DNA from: Tyzzerella sp. | Lineage (GTDB): Bacteria > Bacillota > Clostridia > Lachnospirales > Lachnospiraceae | Assembly: GCA_017465565.1 (NCBI GenBank) | Contig: JAFTWA010000055.1 | Span: 1 to 64,000 of the forward strand | Direction: 5' to 3' | Length of the DNA: 64,000 nucleotides | Shown: positions 8,877 through 53,175 of the stretch, one piece after another | Position numbering within the stretch: position 1 is the stretch's first letter | How the letters are laid out: the number at the start of each line of letters is the position of its first letter | The notes under the pieces: model-generated | What the model saw: only the letters and a program-made list of their open reading frames with translations | Databases searched by the model: none | What the model was told of the DNA's origin: nothing | Translations under genes and position numbers: made by a program

Positions 8877-10109
8877 ATGAAGAAGATACGAAAGATAGAC
8901 GTGATTCAACAAAACCCACGAAATAAAAAGTTGAGAGTGGCAGCCTATTGCCGAGTGAGTACGAAATATGAAAGTCAGAAAACCAGTATTGAGTTACAGA
9001 AAGAATATTACACAAAATTAATAGAGAACAATCCAGACTGGGAAAATGCAGGTGTGTTTGTGGATTATGGAAGCAGATGCAGGACGAAAGGAAGACCATC
9101 ATTTTGCGAGATGATACATAAAGCTATGAAAGGAGAGATTGATTATATCATAACGAAATCTATAAGTAGATTTTCGGGTAACACAGTAGACATGTTGAAA
9201 ATAATTAGAAATTTGGAGGAGAAAAAAGTGACAGTTTGTTTTGAAAAAGAAAATTTGACTAGCACAGATGAGAAGGCAGAAATGATGATTACCTTATATA
9301 CAGCGTTAGCGCAGGATGAAGTTCGAAATATGAGTGAAAACATTAAGTGGGGATTCACACAGAGATTTATGAATGGTGAAACGCTAAACAATTACAAGAA
9401 CTTTTATGGTTTTTATGTGGAAAATGGAGAACTCAAGATTAATGAAGAACAGGCAGCAGTAGTGAGAAATATATTTAATTGGTATTTGGAAGGGGAGTCT
9501 CTATGGCAAATAAAGTTACAATTAGAGAAGGATGGAATTAGGACAGCATCAGGAGGAAAAGTTTGGTATGACACAGTAATACTAGGAATGTTATGTAACG
9601 AAAAATATGCGGGAGACAGTATGCTTCAGAAAACATATACAGAAGATTTTCTTACTGGTAAACGAGCAAAAAACGTCGGTCAGAGAGAACGGTATTACAT
9701 TAGTAATAGTCATGAGGGCATTGTGTCAAAGGAAATTTTTGAGAAGGTTCAGAGAGAAATGGAAAGCCGGAAACGGGTTGTCTGGAATGAAGAAGGAAGC
9801 ACAACAGTGAGAAAGAAATATAATGCACAAAATGTATTGGGAAATGTGTTGGTATGTGGAGAGTGTGGTGCTTCATTCAGAAGAAGAACACAAAGAGAAA
9901 AAGTCGTTTATTGATGTGCTACAAGAATGGAAAAAGGAAAAGCAGCATGCGATAAATCGCCAACATTAGAAGAAACCTGGTTGAAGGAAGAATTAAGTAA
10001 AAGAGTGTGTAATGGCACATATGATGAAAGAGTAATTAGAGAAAAGGTGGATGTAGTAAAAGTTGTTGGAGCCAATAAGATAGAAATTGTATTAAAGAAA
10101 GAGAGATGA
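8877..10109 (+). pseudogene. Large serine recombinase interrupted by one in-frame TGA
   Basis: The open part is 8877-9911 with TGA at 9912-9914; the same frame continues to 10109, giving 410 residues if read through. Resolvase domain at about 20-150 with catalytic S28 in YCRVSTKYESQ and the SRFSGNTVDML segment; recombinase domain about 170-290; zinc ribbon with CGEC before the TGA and C-A-T-R plus a further Cys after it. The family usually has Arg or a similar residue where the TGA stands, so CGA to TGA is a likely change. The downstream part still ends in an ATGA overlap with the next gene, so the mutation looks recent. ATG 8877 is chosen for its AAAGGAT site. The truncated protein would lack half the zinc ribbon. 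Confidence 0.85.
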
Positions 10110-10495
10110 AATTTATGATGTATAGCAGCAAAAGACATCAGGAGATATTCGAAAAAGCAATTATTAAGAAGAACGAAAGTAATTACGCATTGCTTGCAGT
10201 AATATATTTGTTTACAGCTGATAATGAGCTGTGGAAAGTGACAAAAGGCCACGTCGAGAAGAATTCAATTGAGTTTGATAAAATTAAGTTAAATGCTATT
10301 TATACGAAGGGGTATATACTTTATTGTGTGGCAAAAGATTTATATCTTGGAACAGGACATGTTACTGTTAGTGATATTACGAATAGACATTTGGTTGATC
10401 CGAAATTATATGAGATATTATGTAATGGGATGGCGATAAGGAGATTTGGGAGGAATGCGTGGTGTTGGAGAGAAGTAGATAAAGATAGTGCATAG
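10106..10495 (+). CDS. DUF6075-like small protein of mobile elements
   Basis: 129 aa, start ATG overlapping the recombinase frame's final TGA. It contains LLAVIYLFTADNELW, KLNAIYTKGYILYCVAKDLYLGTGHVTV and CNGMAIRRFG, a pattern I associate with DUF6075 proteins found beside serine recombinases in clostridial mobile elements. No catalytic motif is evident and no function is known to me. Its tight coupling to the recombinase suggests a role in, or passenger status with, the element. Confidence 0.65.
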   Translation: MKFMMYSSKRHQEIFEKAIIKKNESNYALLAVIYLFTADNELWKVTKGHVEKNSIEFDKIKLNAIYTKGYILYCVAKDLYLGTGHVTVSDITNRHLVDPKLYEILCNGMAIRRFGRNAWCWREVDKDSA

Positions 10496-10846
10496 TACGA
10501 AAATGTTTTAATGTTGTGAATAAAGAGAACCTATGATAAAATAAAGTTGGGTTATCAATGCAAGGGAATAGCGTGTATGGCACGTTTTATTTGCTTGCAT
10601 TTTTGCTTGGTGAGAATGAAGAAGAGTTTGGAATTAAATAGAATACTAATAGAAAAGACAGTTTGATACATTGTAAAACAGTGTTTGGGAAGAAAAAGAA
10701 CAGGTGATAGCAAAAGAATATTAGTAATTTAAGGAGATGGACTTAGATGCTCACGAAATGTCCTATAAGCCAGATGCAATCGCGAATAATAAATTTGTTG
10801 TTTTCCAAAATATGATTTAAGTTAGAAGGAGAATGGAGGAGAATTT
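10496..10846 (+). other. Spacer with a terminator-like hairpin and a 27-codon frame
   Basis: 351 bp without a convincing gene. ATGCAAG at 10558-10564 pairs with CTTGCAT at 10594-10600, an inner stem CGTG/CACG lies between them and TTTTT follows, so this is a plausible terminator for the recombinase/DUF6075 pair. A short frame at 10737-10820 (MDLDAHEMSYKPDAIANNKF and seven more residues) has its AAGGAG directly against the ATG and may be a gene remnant. The final 20 bp hold the ribosome binding site of the next gene. Confidence 0.5.
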
Positions 10847-47946: not shown

Positions 47947-48939
47947 ATGGGGGATTATAAACCGCCTTTTACAATTACAAATGAAATATTGTCATATGTG
48001 TCATCTATTTCGGAAAAGATTGGGCGTATTACGGCAACTAGTAATTTAGAATCAAAACCACACTTGAGAAAAAATAATCGTATCAAATCCATCCATTCTT
48101 CCTTGAAGATTGAAGCTAATTCGTTATCCCTTGGACAGGTCAGGGACGTTATCAATGGAAAGATGGTTTTGGGCGAGAAGAAAGAAATTCAAGAAGTAAA
48201 AAATGCATATGCTGCATATGAAAAATTTTCTGAAATTAATCCATACAGCATACGAGATTTGAAGAAGTTTCACGGTATTATGACCAAATATGTAGTGGAA
48301 GAATCCGGTGCTTTCCGCCGAGGCGAAGAAGGTGTTTTTAATGGCGAACAGTGTATTTTTATGGCACCGCCTGCACGATTTGTTCCACAGTTAATGGAGG
48401 AACTATTTAGCTGGATGGATGAAGGAAAAAATAGTGTTCATCCATTGATTCTTAGTAGTGTATTTCATTATGAATTCGTTTTTATTCATCCGTTCTCTGA
48501 TGGCAACGGTAGAATGGCAAGATTATGGCATACAGCGATTCTTTCAAAATGGAAACCAGTATTTGAGTATATTCCGATTGAAAGCCAGATAGAGAAGTTT
48601 CAAGACGAATATTATGATGCGATTGCTAAATGTCATGTAGATGGTGCCTCTACAATTCTTATTGAATTTATGCTGTCGCAGATTGATAAAATTTTGGATG
48701 ATATTTCTGTACAGATTAGCGGGGATAATGAACAGCTTTCAGAATATATCAAGAAAATGCTTGGGGTTATGGAATACGATATTCCTTACACAAGCAAAGC
48801 ACTCATGGAAAAGTTGGGATTGAAATCAAAAGAAGGATTCCGCAGAAATTATTTGCGTCCGGCAATAGATATGAATTTGATTCGAATGACGATTCCAGAT
48901 AAGCCTAATAGCAGGAATCAAAGGTATGTAAAGATTTAA
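47947..48939 (+). CDS. Fic/DOC family AMP-transferase
   Basis: 330 aa. Fic core motif HPFSDGNGRMARLWH with catalytic H181. N-terminal helix SSLKIEANSL resembles the class II inhibitory motif (S/T-x3-E-G/N), so activity may be self-restrained. The C-terminus (about 265-330: YTSKALMEKLGLKSKEGFRRNYLRPA) is a winged-helix DNA-binding segment, common in this Fic subfamily. Fic enzymes usually add AMP to target proteins. Start ATG 47947 has GGAGGTG upstream. It sits in the decayed hipBA segment but is itself intact. Confidence 0.92.
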   Translation: MGDYKPPFTITNEILSYVSSISEKIGRITATSNLESKPHLRKNNRIKSIHSSLKIEANSLSLGQVRDVINGKMVLGEKKEIQEVKNAYAAYEKFSEINPYSIRDLKKFHGIMTKYVVEESGAFRRGEEGVFNGEQCIFMAPPARFVPQLMEELFSWMDEGKNSVHPLILSSVFHYEFVFIHPFSDGNGRMARLWHTAILSKWKPVFEYIPIESQIEKFQDEYYDAIAKCHVDGASTILIEFMLSQIDKILDDISVQISGDNEQLSEYIKKMLGVMEYDIPYTSKALMEKLGLKSKEGFRRNYLRPAIDMNLIRMTIPDKPNSRNQRYVKI

Positions 48940-50536: not shown

Positions 50537-51032
50537 AAAAACAACGCTAATCATAGTATTTTTGCTGCTTTTGTCCATTCCGCAGGTGGTCAGTGCCAAT
50601 TCTTCCTGGTGCTGGATTTCTGAAACAAGACCATATGATGTCTTGCCTGTGGTGGCGGTTGCAACCATATTAATTGAGGTCGTGATGATAAATCGCTGTG
50701 CCGGACTAAAAAGTTATTACAGAACAATGGCTTGTGTCACAGTGGCAAATCTGTTATCCTTTGTGTGTCCATACATAGTAAATTACTGTCGACTTATAGA
50801 GGGTAAAGGTTATCAGCCTATAAGTGACATGTTTGAACACTGGCCTGTATATACAGTTGGAATTTGTTTCTTGATTGTGACAGTAGCGGTGGAACTTCCA
50901 ATCGTATATTTGGGGCTGCGGAAAAGAGTCGAGGATACAAAGAAACTGAAAAGAATAATTGTCATAGCCAATGTGTTGACGACCATTATGGTGGCAGTAG
51001 TGGAGAGAATGTTCTGTCAAGGGCATTGGTAA
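50526..51032 (+). CDS. Small multi-pass membrane protein of the sigma operon
   Basis: 168 aa with a signal-like TM (about 7-25, ending VVSANS) and about three further TM helices (38-58, 68-88, 105-128, 140-160 regions). Overlaps the putative anti-sigma gene by 11 bp, so it is translated from the same message. Not recognised as a family. It may be the regulated target or a co-sensor. Confidence 0.68.
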   Translation: MKNRKTTLIIVFLLLLSIPQVVSANSSWCWISETRPYDVLPVVAVATILIEVVMINRCAGLKSYYRTMACVTVANLLSFVCPYIVNYCRLIEGKGYQPISDMFEHWPVYTVGICFLIVTVAVELPIVYLGLRKRVEDTKKLKRIIVIANVLTTIMVAVVERMFCQGHW

Positions 51033-51073
51033 AGTGAAAAGACCTAGTGTAATCGGGTTCTAGGTCGATAGTT

Positions 51074-51102
51074 GGAGTGGGATTTTAACAAAATCGCACT
51101 CC
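51074..51102. other. Hairpin between the sigma operon and the DUF3644 gene
   Basis: GGAGTG-G-GATTTT (51074-51086) pairs with AAAATC-G-CACTCC (51090-51102), one G-G mismatch, 3-nt loop. A smaller GACCTAG/CTAGGTC pair lies at 51041-51047/51060-51066. Neither has a T run, so they are weak terminator candidates or leader structures. Confidence 0.5.
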
Positions 51103-51197
51103 ATTGTTGCGTTTGAAAGCTGTTTGATGCAGGGAGTTTTTGTTGGTTGAAAACAATCAAAAAAAGAATTATTATTAATAAAGAGGAGCTCAAATAA

Positions 51198-52187
51198 ATG
51201 ATAAAAAGAAAGGTGAGAAATATGGAGAAACTTGAAGATAAATTAGTAGAAAAATCGATAGAGGCTTTTATAATGGGACTTGAAATATATAATAAACCTA
51301 CTATCAAGTACAGAATTGAAGGCTTTTCTTTCTTTATCGTGAACGCATGGGAACTGATGTTAAAGGCTATACTATTAAAACGTGGAGAAAGTATTTATTT
51401 TCCAGATAAGCCAGATAGAACCTTAAGTTTAGATAATGTTATTCGAAAAATTTACACTGACAAAAATACGCGTATTAGATTAAATTTGGAAAAAATTATT
51501 GAACTCAGAAATATTAGCACTCATTACATTACCGAAGATTACGAAGTTAAATATGCGCCTCTTTTCCAGGCATGTGTTCTGAACTTCGTAAACGAAATAC
51601 AGCGTTTCCATAACATAGATATTACTAAATATATCGCGCAGAACTTTCTCACAATTTCTGCAAGATACGAACCTTTGTCCAATGAGGAAATTAAGTTGAA
51701 ATACTCACCAGAAATAGCTGAAAAGCTCATTAAGCAGGCTAACGAAATCGATGTTTTAAGTACCACTTACAATTCAGATAAATTTTCCATTAACATCAAA
51801 CAAAATTTGTATATAACTAAAAAGAAGGAAGAAGCTGATTTCATTGTAAGCATTAATTCAAATTCTGATACAAAAGTTACTATGGTAAAAGATTTAAAAG
51901 ACCCGTCTGACACGCATAAGTATTCGTTTAATAATGTAATTACAGCTGTGCAAGAGAGTCTAAAAAAGAAAAATATCAAATTAGGTTATAAATCTGGATT
52001 CAATCAGTTTGTACTGAGTTTAGTAATTGATTTTTATGATATAAAGCAAGAAACAAAATATGCCTATAAACACATTATAGGAAAACAACACTCGTATACA
52101 TACTCTCAACAATTTATTGAATTTATTGTCTCGGAAATAGAAAAAGATCCGCACAATTTTGTAGAAAGTTTGAAAAAAAGTAAATAA
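51198..52187 (+). CDS. DUF3644 HEPN-like protein (candidate RNase toxin/defence protein)
   Basis: 329 aa from ATG 51198; ATG 51222 (MEKLEDKLVEKSIEAF) also has a good site (AAAGGTGAG) and may be the true start. Matches DUF3644: EKSIEAFIMGLEIYNKPT, FSFFIVNAWELMLKAILLKRG and the HEPN-type R-x4-H motif R104-N-I-S-T-H109. The C-terminal half is unrecognised. HEPN proteins are often RNases of toxin-antitoxin or defence systems. A structured RNA on the opposite strand begins at its own promoter and ends exactly at this gene's stop codon. Confidence 0.82.
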   Translation: MIKRKVRNMEKLEDKLVEKSIEAFIMGLEIYNKPTIKYRIEGFSFFIVNAWELMLKAILLKRGESIYFPDKPDRTLSLDNVIRKIYTDKNTRIRLNLEKIIELRNISTHYITEDYEVKYAPLFQACVLNFVNEIQRFHNIDITKYIAQNFLTISARYEPLSNEEIKLKYSPEIAEKLIKQANEIDVLSTTYNSDKFSINIKQNLYITKKKEEADFIVSINSNSDTKVTMVKDLKDPSDTHKYSFNNVITAVQESLKKKNIKLGYKSGFNQFVLSLVIDFYDIKQETKYAYKHIIGKQHSYTYSQQFIEFIVSEIEKDPHNFVESLKKSK

Positions 52188-52276
52188 AAAAGATAACCCC
52201 AGGCACATAGGAATGCTCAGTATCAAAGTACCTACCCCATTCTGGGACCCAGTGTTATTCCTTCACAAGTTATCTT
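52184..52276 (-). ncRNA. Pseudoknot-capable small RNA convergent with the DUF3644 gene
   Basis: Predicted minus-strand RNA of about 93 nt. Outer stem AAGAUAAC (52276-52269) with GUUAUCUU (52197-52190), followed by a U-rich run. Inside it CCCAG (52246-52242) can pair with CUGGG (52202-52198), GGUAC (52232-52228) with GUGCC (52206-52202 region), and AGGAAU (52262-52257) with AUUCCU (52214-52209), which crosses the CCCAG stem and so makes a pseudoknot. A consensus-like promoter places the start at the first base of the outer stem. The compact pseudoknot recalls type III antitoxin RNAs. Expression is not shown. Confidence 0.65.
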
Positions 52277-52282
52277 ATAATT

Positions 52283-52311
52283 ATAATACTATTTTATCGT
52301 TTTTTTGTCAA
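52283..52311 (-). promoter_or_regulatory. Promoter of the DUF3644-linked small RNA
   Basis: TTGACA (52311-52306), 17-bp spacer and TATTAT (52288-52283) on the minus strand. The start expected 7 nt on is 52276, the first base of the RNA's outer stem. Confidence 0.68.
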
Positions 52312-52398
52312 TTTATGTATTTAAAAGAGTGCAATTAATAACAAAAAAGTTATGTTACTATTATAAAAATGATGATGCAATAAAGAGAGGTATTTGTC

Positions 52399-53175
52399 AT
52401 GATAAATAAAATTATTGAGATTGTAAGAGAAGCGAGCAAGTTGATGACAGCAGACATAATAATCGAGCAAAAAGGAAATGATTCTAACTATGTGACTTCA
52501 GCGGACGTGAATGTGCAGCATTATTTGGAACAACATTTGCCAAAGTTGATTCCGGGAAGTACGTTTCTCGGAGAAGAAGAGGAAGAAGAAGTCATTGAGA
52601 GTGAATATATATGGGTGGTGGACCCAATTGATGGAACGTCTAATTTTATCCGAGGGCTTGGGGCAAGCGCAATTTCGGTTGGACTTGTAAAAGATGAGAA
52701 ACCTTATCTTGGTGTGATTTACGAGCCGTATGGAGACGAAATGTACTGGGCGGAGCGCGGGAAAGGCGCATTTTTAAATGGGAAACCAATACATGTTTCA
52801 GATAGAGATTTCAAACATGCAACGTTGTGTTCGGCGGCAAGTTTGTACAACAAAGATTTGGCAAAGCCGTGCTTTAATATTATTGAAAAAGTGTATTTTG
52901 AATCAGATGATTTCCGCAGATTCGGTTCTGCTGCAATCGAGCTGGCATATTTGGCAGCAGGACGCGTGGAATTATACTTTGAAATCAGGTTATTCCCATG
53001 GGACATTGCAGCCGGCTTGGTTATTATTGAAGAGGCGGGTGGATTTGTGGAAGTTCTTCACGAAGAGACATTTCCACTCGACAGACCAGCTGGAGTTATT
53101 GCGGCTAACAATAGAGAAAATTTTGATAAATTAAGAGAGATTGTGTATGAGGAAATACCAGAGAAAATGTATTAA
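52399..53175 (+). CDS. Inositol monophosphatase family protein
   Basis: 258 aa. Metal-binding motifs GEEEEEE near residue 55, WVVDPIDGTSNFIRG about 73-87 and PWDIAAG about 199-205 define the IMPase/SuhB fold; DNA reads these without interruption. It would remove phosphate from inositol or a related sugar phosphate. Ribosome binding site AGAGAGG. It stands alone; the next gene has its own promoter. Confidence 0.92.
   Translation: MINKIIEIVREASKLMTADIIIEQKGNDSNYVTSADVNVQHYLEQHLPKLIPGSTFLGEEEEEEVIESEYIWVVDPIDGTSNFIRGLGASAISVGLVKDEKPYLGVIYEPYGDEMYWAERGKGAFLNGKPIHVSDRDFKHATLCSAASLYNKDLAKPCFNIIEKVYFESDDFRRFGSAAIELAYLAAGRVELYFEIRLFPWDIAAGLVIIEEAGGFVEVLHEETFPLDRPAGVIAANNRENFDKLREIVYEEIPEKMY

Follow-up and report, generated by a model that had tools for sequence, protein, structure and literature searches.

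A covarying RNA that faces one clade of DUF3644 HEPN genes and its possible part in an RNA-controlled anti-phage module

The DUF3644 gene and its convergent RNA

The stretch of DNA analysed here, a 64,000-nucleotide part of a Tyzzerella sp. contig termed the window, harbors on its plus strand a gene of the DUF3644/EC042_2821-type HEPN family (51222-52187), which is assigned by PADLOC to PDC-S19 (E 6.8e-148, from residue 9; best model PDLC04952), a system with candidate status for phage defence in that resource. The N-terminal part of the encoded protein corresponds to PF12358 (Pfam, E 1.4e-55), and the C-terminus is constituted by PF18740 (51900-52175, plus strand; E 4.4e-32), an EC042_2821-like domain named REase-like. 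An alternative start at 51198 is open too, and the start at 51222 appears the more likely one because residue 8-9 is where eight of the 18 protein-search matches, and also the best match in PADLOC, set in. The active sites of HEPN proteins follow the spacing rule R-x4-6-H. A first reading made from the sequence only had recognised a DUF3644 HEPN gene with an R-x4-H motif, and the domain matches bear this out: the motif RNISTH is located at 51507-51524 on the plus strand (R96 to H101, numbered from 51222), and R96 and H101 are invariant in all 22 aligned sequences, the window's own included, in an alignment that omits L004 (internal stop) and L007. A sequence search retrieved no relative of solved structure. 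The gene is preceded by a promoter-like site, TTGAAA-17-TATTAT (51147-51175, plus strand; 10/12 in a consensus scan), and a simple scan revealed no terminator for its transcript. Near this locus, a gene at 47947-48939 on the plus strand encodes a Fic-domain protein (PF02661, E 5.8e-20; PADLOC SoFic, E 2.9e-36).

Beyond the 3' end of the DUF3644 gene, comparative analysis delineates a structured RNA of about 87 nt on the minus strand (52190-52276), which is followed by a U run (52184-52191, minus strand) and for which Rfam 15 gives no gathering match. The sequence-only reading had placed a minus-strand TTGACA-17-TATTAT promoter in front of this RNA and a U run that extends into the stop codon of the DUF3644 gene. 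Both elements are present: the promoter spans 52311-52283 (11/12, the best site within 51000-52500), and the U run reaches the TAA at 52185-52187. The start of the RNA, at about 52276, is predicted from the position of the promoter. Promoter-like sites are not enriched in the scanned stretch, with 10 observed and 8.1 expected from shuffles. Among related loci, a -10 element of at least 5/6 lies 9-18 nt upstream of the RNA in 70 of the 78 distinct stretches that precede it (mononucleotide-shuffled controls: mean 14.8, maximum 25; a control stretch further upstream: 11/78), and a -35 element of at least 4/6 is present in 53 of 76 (shuffled mean 12.1). The RNA is presumably transcribed. The RNA thus lies downstream of the DUF3644 gene in a convergent, tail-to-tail layout and possesses a promoter-like site of its own. 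The distance from the stop codon to P1, the outermost helix of the RNA, was measured at 49 loci; at 47 of them the codon ends between -37 and +3 nt of this helix. At a fiftieth locus (L012) the reading frame of the gene continues through the RNA.

Linkage of the RNA to one DUF3644 clade

Protein-based searches provided 18 genome loci and 25 viral loci, many of the latter being near copies (28 distinct stretches). A blastn search with a 97-nt stretch gave a match on the opposite strand just beyond the gene in 43 of 44 loci, the window's own included, and at the lone exception (L019) the gene match stops at residue 279 of 329. This adjacency to the 3' end of the gene, taken together with the covariation described below, argues that the RNA is not a product of chance.

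A family search in 196 and 398 genomes yielded 15 PF12358 loci, three of them under the family cut-off. The covariance model R1, which was built from 25 RNAs, matched the window, L048, L049, L051 and L052, and found no match at L045, L047, L050 and L053-L059. Run unfiltered for other DUF3644 subfamilies, it returned weak matches only (E 0.32-3.6, in L045, L056 and L156), and model R2 detected nothing at E ≤1 in 15 loci, comprising 14 with other-subfamily or weak DUF3644 proteins and L019. PDLC04952 is the best PADLOC model for the RNA-bearing L048, L051 and L052, and other PDC-S19 models take this place for the RNA-less proteins scanned. In a tree of 54 proteins, which omits four loci and identical proteins and contains several long outer branches of unsure order, a branch supported at 99/98 has the 46 RNA-bearing rows all on the same side. 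Judged by these comparisons, the RNA is tied to one DUF3644 clade (PDC-S19, PDLC04952), and the other subfamilies examined are without it; conservation and covariation at other DUF3644 loci, which the first reading had suggested as its check, thus speak in its favour for a single clade. The C-terminal PF18740 domain recurs in the proteins of L051 (E 9.4e-34) and L048 (a match under the cut-off), and has no match in seven proteins of other subfamilies (L045, L047, L053-L057). It may be regarded as a candidate RNA-recognition part, yet the L073 protein also contains PF18740 (E 4e-10) and no RNA was found at L073.

Every intact DUF3644 gene of the RNA-bearing clade that was examined, including that of the window, is accompanied by the RNA. 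In the phage collection, all 39 records whose DUF3644 is full-length and at least 47% identical carry the RNA. Eight further phage records contain DUF3644. Among these, the model detects the RNA in Flavonifractor phage Chenonceau (43%) and in Corynebacterium phage Poushou (32%), Javan251 retains a gene remnant plus the RNA, the 22% record L156 shows none, and the remaining four (Corynebacterium, 32% identity) stand outside the RNA tally. No viral relatives were found for two other-subfamily DUF3644 proteins, and a third has three viral loci, all without the RNA. The range of the RNA covers Lachnospiraceae, Lactobacillaceae, Streptococcus phages and satellite phages, Staphylococcus and Listeria phages and one Corynebacterium phage. 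Within the class of the window, the RNA model matched six of the 391 genomes searched, its own included (with a single copy); within the order to which Streptococcus hyovaginalis (G953, locus L015) belongs, it matched 26 of 395. The E. coli genomes gave no blastn match to the window RNA. The taxonomic labels of two RNA records, Fusobacterium (L008) and Bacteroidota (L013), may be wrong; in the tree, both are neighbours of a Lachnospiraceae row.

The DUF3644/EC042_2821 HEPN family, of which the window protein is a member, has been placed in restriction-modification operons, in passages that name no RNA partner (Anantharaman et al. 2013, PMC3710099). At the RNA-less loci L045, L054 and L056, the next gene encodes HSDR_N or a D12 methylase, which agrees with the context given for the family in those passages. 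One DUF3644 clade may have left the restriction-modification context and adopted RNA control.

The distances among the RNAs and among the proteins are correlated (Mantel r 0.853, 0/2000 permutations, n = 50). Such co-divergence fits cognate partners, and shared descent or linked inheritance alone could suffice for it too. The tight linkage and the co-divergence would fit a holo-enzyme equally well, in which the protein depends on the RNA as its cofactor or phage sensor and the RNA-protein complex is the effector, activated or aimed by its RNA; the strongly conserved unpaired AAGGA, UA and AG of the fold could serve as its recognition sites. For reasons that lie in the gene-less copies and in the shape of the RNA, both considered below, we regard this cofactor reading as rather unlikely and favour a protein that is restrained by its RNA.

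Fold and covariation of the RNA

The fold was evaluated on an alignment (A4) of 84 copies, 76 of them distinct, from 83 loci, which omits near copies and a few others (e.g. L064, L077, L129 and the shortened copy L128) and which, being fitted to the structure of R1, favours P1, P3, P4 and outer P2. Within the four nested helices, 96.7% of the cells are paired and 17 of 24 pairs are changed on both sides; on all five measures these values lie above those of each of 500 shuffles, and the paired fraction drops to 39-51% in slid controls. P1 joins AAGAUAAC (52269-52276) to GUUAUCUU (52190-52197), both on the minus strand, with both-side changes in six of eight pairs and 98.2% of cells paired, by which the 8-bp outer stem that had been read at 52276-52269/52197-52190 is confirmed as a covarying helix. 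In Corynebacterium phage Poushou, P1 is formed by GCACCAAC/GUUGGUGU, where five of eight pairs are changed, four on both sides, and all are paired. The internal loop between P1 and P2 bears a conserved AAGGA (52259-52263, minus strand). P2 is composed of CACUGGG (52248-52254, minus strand), whose partners are 52211-52208 and 52206-52204, and of CCUAUGUG (52204-52211, minus strand) with a bulged U at 52207; four of its seven pairs are changed on both sides. Its inner part (columns 26-29/87-90) is absent from the R1 structure and has a covariation score of 0.214 vs 0.103 for shuffles (0/500), a signal derived from one pair, columns 28/88, which is G-C, U-A, A-U or C-G among the copies; 29/87 is invariant, only one of the two positions of 27/89 varies, and 14 of 76 copies have lost the U-A pair at 26/90. 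The P3 hairpin, UCCCA-GAA-UGGGG (52235-52247, minus strand), is changed on both sides in four of five pairs and paired in 97.9% of cells, and four of five P3 pairs differ in L048 and L049. For the variable P4 hairpin, GGUA...UACU (52219-52232, minus strand), the corresponding values are three of four pairs and 92.6%.

RNAalifold, applied to a plain MAFFT alignment of 51 copies, recovered P1 and most of P2 (5/7 pairs) and P3 (4/5 pairs), and missed P4. It also added a candidate pairing of AGG (within 52259-52263) with CCU (52203-52201), one pair of which shows two double changes and is unpaired in ten of 84 copies, the other two being nearly invariant. When the window RNA was folded as a single sequence, its energy equalled that of shuffles (z 0.21). 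The conserved unpaired bases comprise AAGGA, UA, AG and CCUGGG, and with regard to peptide coding no reading frame is kept, by eye, over the rows of A4. On the comparative evidence, the RNA is a real conserved and covarying structure.

Two inner pairings of the first reading did not withstand the alignment. The pseudoknot proposed between AGGA, in the conserved internal loop, and UCCU is complementary in the window, but its covariation over the 76 distinct copies amounts to 0.054 vs 0.064 for shuffles, 478 of 500 being as high, and the UCC strand covaries with the GGG of CACUGGG in P2. This pairing had been found in 97% of cells in 25 close sequences and failed on the 76 distinct ones. The stem CCCAG/CUGGG, across which the pseudoknot had been drawn, has three pairs that are mostly pairable with almost no double change and a fourth that is paired in 46 of 76, and many copies have A or T in place of its last G or lack this base.

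The occurrence of many phage copies near integrase genes brings to mind an element that works as DNA, such as a site of integration or regulation. Compensatory changes, a promoter-like site kept upstream and a preference of G-U pairs for one strand (96.7% paired on the minus strand vs 84.6% for the complement) make such an element in place of an RNA extremely improbable. A second alternative arises from the layout, as the end of the RNA meets the stop codon of the gene and the mRNA, for which the simple scan found no terminator, may enter the RNA gene: the RNA could be a cis-antisense or transcription-interference regulator of type I-like kind, which pairs with the 3' end of the DUF3644 mRNA. 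An RNA encoded opposite its target is complementary to it by default and would not require a conserved fold. The fold of this RNA nevertheless covaries, and many of its unpaired positions are near-invariant; moreover, the stop codon lies 69 nt (L155, Poushou) or 72 nt (L038) short of the RNA. We therefore hold antisense control to be distinctly improbable and retain an RNA that acts on the protein.

RNA copies without an intact gene

Among the 84 copies of A4, 51 accompany an intact gene and ten a broken or partial one, and for 23 no gene was detected within 1.35 kb; the latter include L149, at a contig end, and the second copy of phage StB20-like. Mean pairing for the intact, broken and gene-less groups is 0.974, 0.958 and 0.964, and a -10 element of at least 5/6 is found in 47/51, 9/10 and 20/23, respectively. 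A cofactor alone fails to explain why 23 of 84 copies keep fold and promoter without a gene. Seven Staphylococcus phages (S-CoN_Ph18 to Ph24) likewise contain the RNA and no DUF3644 match. A strict pattern retrieved 37 stretches from IMG/VR, 29 with a DUF3644 match (a few of these in pieces) and eight without, and 32 examined RNA loci from the RNA-model searches of genomes are divided into 18 with and 14 without such a match.

The last DUF3644 codons are legible by eye beside the gene-less RNAs of L132, L133, L099, L060, L062-L064, L121, L123 and L150. A profile search for these scars, in which the best opposite-strand control reached E 2, gave L133 (E 5e-5), L123 (0.04), L060 (0.069) and L128 (0.59, where no scar is visible), and L099, L132 and L150 did not rise above the opposite-strand control. 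The gene-less RNAs could be, in part, recent gene losses. Beside the scar there is now an Abi_2 gene at L123, HSDR_N at L121 and CapA at L062-L064, and these neighbours look like replacements of DUF3644.

The same neighbours, together with an Abi_2/AbiD gene at L111 and a NYN gene at L104, are what would recommend a reading of the RNA as an independent prophage element, either a regulator or a general antidote, for which DUF3644 is just the commonest neighbour. This is very improbable in view of the RNA that each examined intact DUF3644 of the clade possesses and of the DUF3644 C-terminal codons seen at L121, L123 and L062-L064; a dedicated partnership with DUF3644 is thus preferred. At L111, the Abi_2/AbiD gene (9540-10547; PF07751, E 1.3e-32) is arranged tail-to-tail with the RNA (10612-10522), its frame ends inside the RNA, and no DUF3644 scar was seen. 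A second Abi_2 gene facing the RNA is that of L123 (444-1403), and these two genes may hint at wider partners. The gene-less RNA of L104 (7226-7314) faces a NYN-domain gene (PF01936, E 1.1e-9).

In the Staphylococcus phage StB20-like (L063), two RNA copies are located at 588-676 and 2418-2509, one at the phage's own DUF3644 gene and the second beside a CapA gene; by eye, the copy beside CapA resembles more the RNA of phage S-CoN_Ph25. At the two-RNA loci L063 and L077, the copies are more than 1.7 kb apart.

Proposed function and comparison with known systems

What is observed, namely the gene, a conserved promoter-like site, the conserved covarying RNA, its linkage to one clade and its occurrence at loci that lack an intact gene, would be accommodated by a two-part anti-phage module of abortive-infection-like kind, consisting of a HEPN RNase and an inhibiting RNA, with orphan RNAs being protective; we consider this account probable, with appreciable doubt. 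The DUF3644 gene would encode the predicted HEPN RNase, and the convergent gene would produce, from its own sigma-A-type promoter, the RNA of about 87 nt with P1, the AAGGA internal loop, P2 and the hairpins P3 and P4. In the uninfected cell, abundant RNA would bind the protein and keep the HEPN dimer inactive. Upon infection, the phage would disturb host transcription or RNA stability, so that the RNA drops and the RNase is freed. Phages, satellites and plasmids endowed with the RNA alone would be shielded from the DUF3644 of other elements. RNase activity, binding with inhibition, release on infection and the antidote role of orphan RNAs are thus presumptive steps of this scheme, in which the gene-less copies may be antidotes borne by phages and other elements.

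The sequence-only reading had offered the RNA as an antitoxin or guide-like regulator of the DUF3644 protein. Its status as a partner, probably an antitoxin, is indirectly supported by linkage, covariation, co-divergence and retention where the gene is broken or absent, and the guide-like half finds no support, for both ends of the RNA are paired in P1, no stretch resembles a variable spacer, and the most variable part is a hairpin. Cas13 is a HEPN R-x4-H RNase bound to a guide RNA. Among the 84 copies, no CRISPR spacer, array or guide-like variable end was seen, P4 being the most variable part, which also weighs against a cofactor that aims the protein. The antitoxin reading is favoured because the RNA accompanies the intact gene but not the reverse, because unpaired bases are conserved, and because a precedent is available in AbiF-RCd22, whose RNA neutralises the toxin by binding, according to passages of PMC12373285.

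In its proposed working, the module resembles AbiF with its RNA and the type III toxin-antitoxin systems, without the defining features of either. The AbiF system (abiF-motif RNA, RCd22/AbiFr, RF03085) likewise combines a single HEPN protein with a compact promoter-driven RNA, of about 100 nt in AbiF, and the pair lies in a prophage, as stated in parts of PMC12373285 and PMC12737573. The AbiF RNA, as these parts describe it, precedes the gene on the same strand, is presumed to share a transcript with it and carries abiF motifs, whereas the window RNA is convergent with a promoter-like site of its own. A search for abiF RNA gave no match at E ≤10 in 52100-52420 and no gathering match in the window, and the window protein is not Abi_2 (PF07751), with an hhalign probability of 0.2% against a thin profile of two Abi_2 proteins.

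Type III toxin-antitoxin systems, among which are ToxIN, CptIN, AbiQ and TenpIN, share with the proposal an RNase toxin held by a structured RNA. They are characterised, in passages of PMC5086642, by a ToxN-like toxin and a repetitive, pseudoknotted RNA upstream of it, with one promoter and a terminator between the genes. By contrast, the window protein belongs, by sequence family, to DUF3644 plus EC042_2821 and not to the ToxN type; its RNA is downstream and convergent rather than upstream in one operon with an intervening terminator, and is a single copy rather than a tandem repeat. The proposed pseudoknot does not covary, although another tertiary pairing is possible. A phage-borne pseudo-ToxI can act as an antidote to ToxIN, as reported in part of PMC3475682.

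We entertain, tentatively and with doubt somewhat outweighing confidence, the wider idea that this is a second, independent RNA-controlled HEPN defence module besides AbiF/Cas13, whose antidote RNA is traded by satellites, prophages and plasmids and kept alone or stacked beside an element's own pair. If correct, the few protein toxins held by RNA would be joined by a new HEPN clade together with a new family of RNA, and the locus would afford an independent comparison for the origin of RNA-bound HEPN enzymes such as Cas13. The novelty of the RNA is judged from Rfam 15 and from searches of the open-access literature: no description of the window RNA was found in the open part of PubMed Central, and the term PDC-S19, a tested mechanism for DUF3644/PDC-S19 and a convergent toxin-RNA layout were likewise not met in the open-access texts searched. 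DUF3644/PDC-S19 would gain a directly testable partner, and the gene-less phage RNAs are predicted to be natural anti-defence molecules.

Two further gene-less loci deserve mention. In one genome (G1264, contig C20), two RNAs are situated about 9.7 kb apart (L138 and L153), with no DUF3644 match. At L113, a gene-less RNA is adjoined by a gene for 136 amino acids (1948-2460), and this gene is preceded on its own strand, at a distance of about 50 nt, by an Rfam 6A RNA (RF02925); the two are possibly another small protein-RNA pair.
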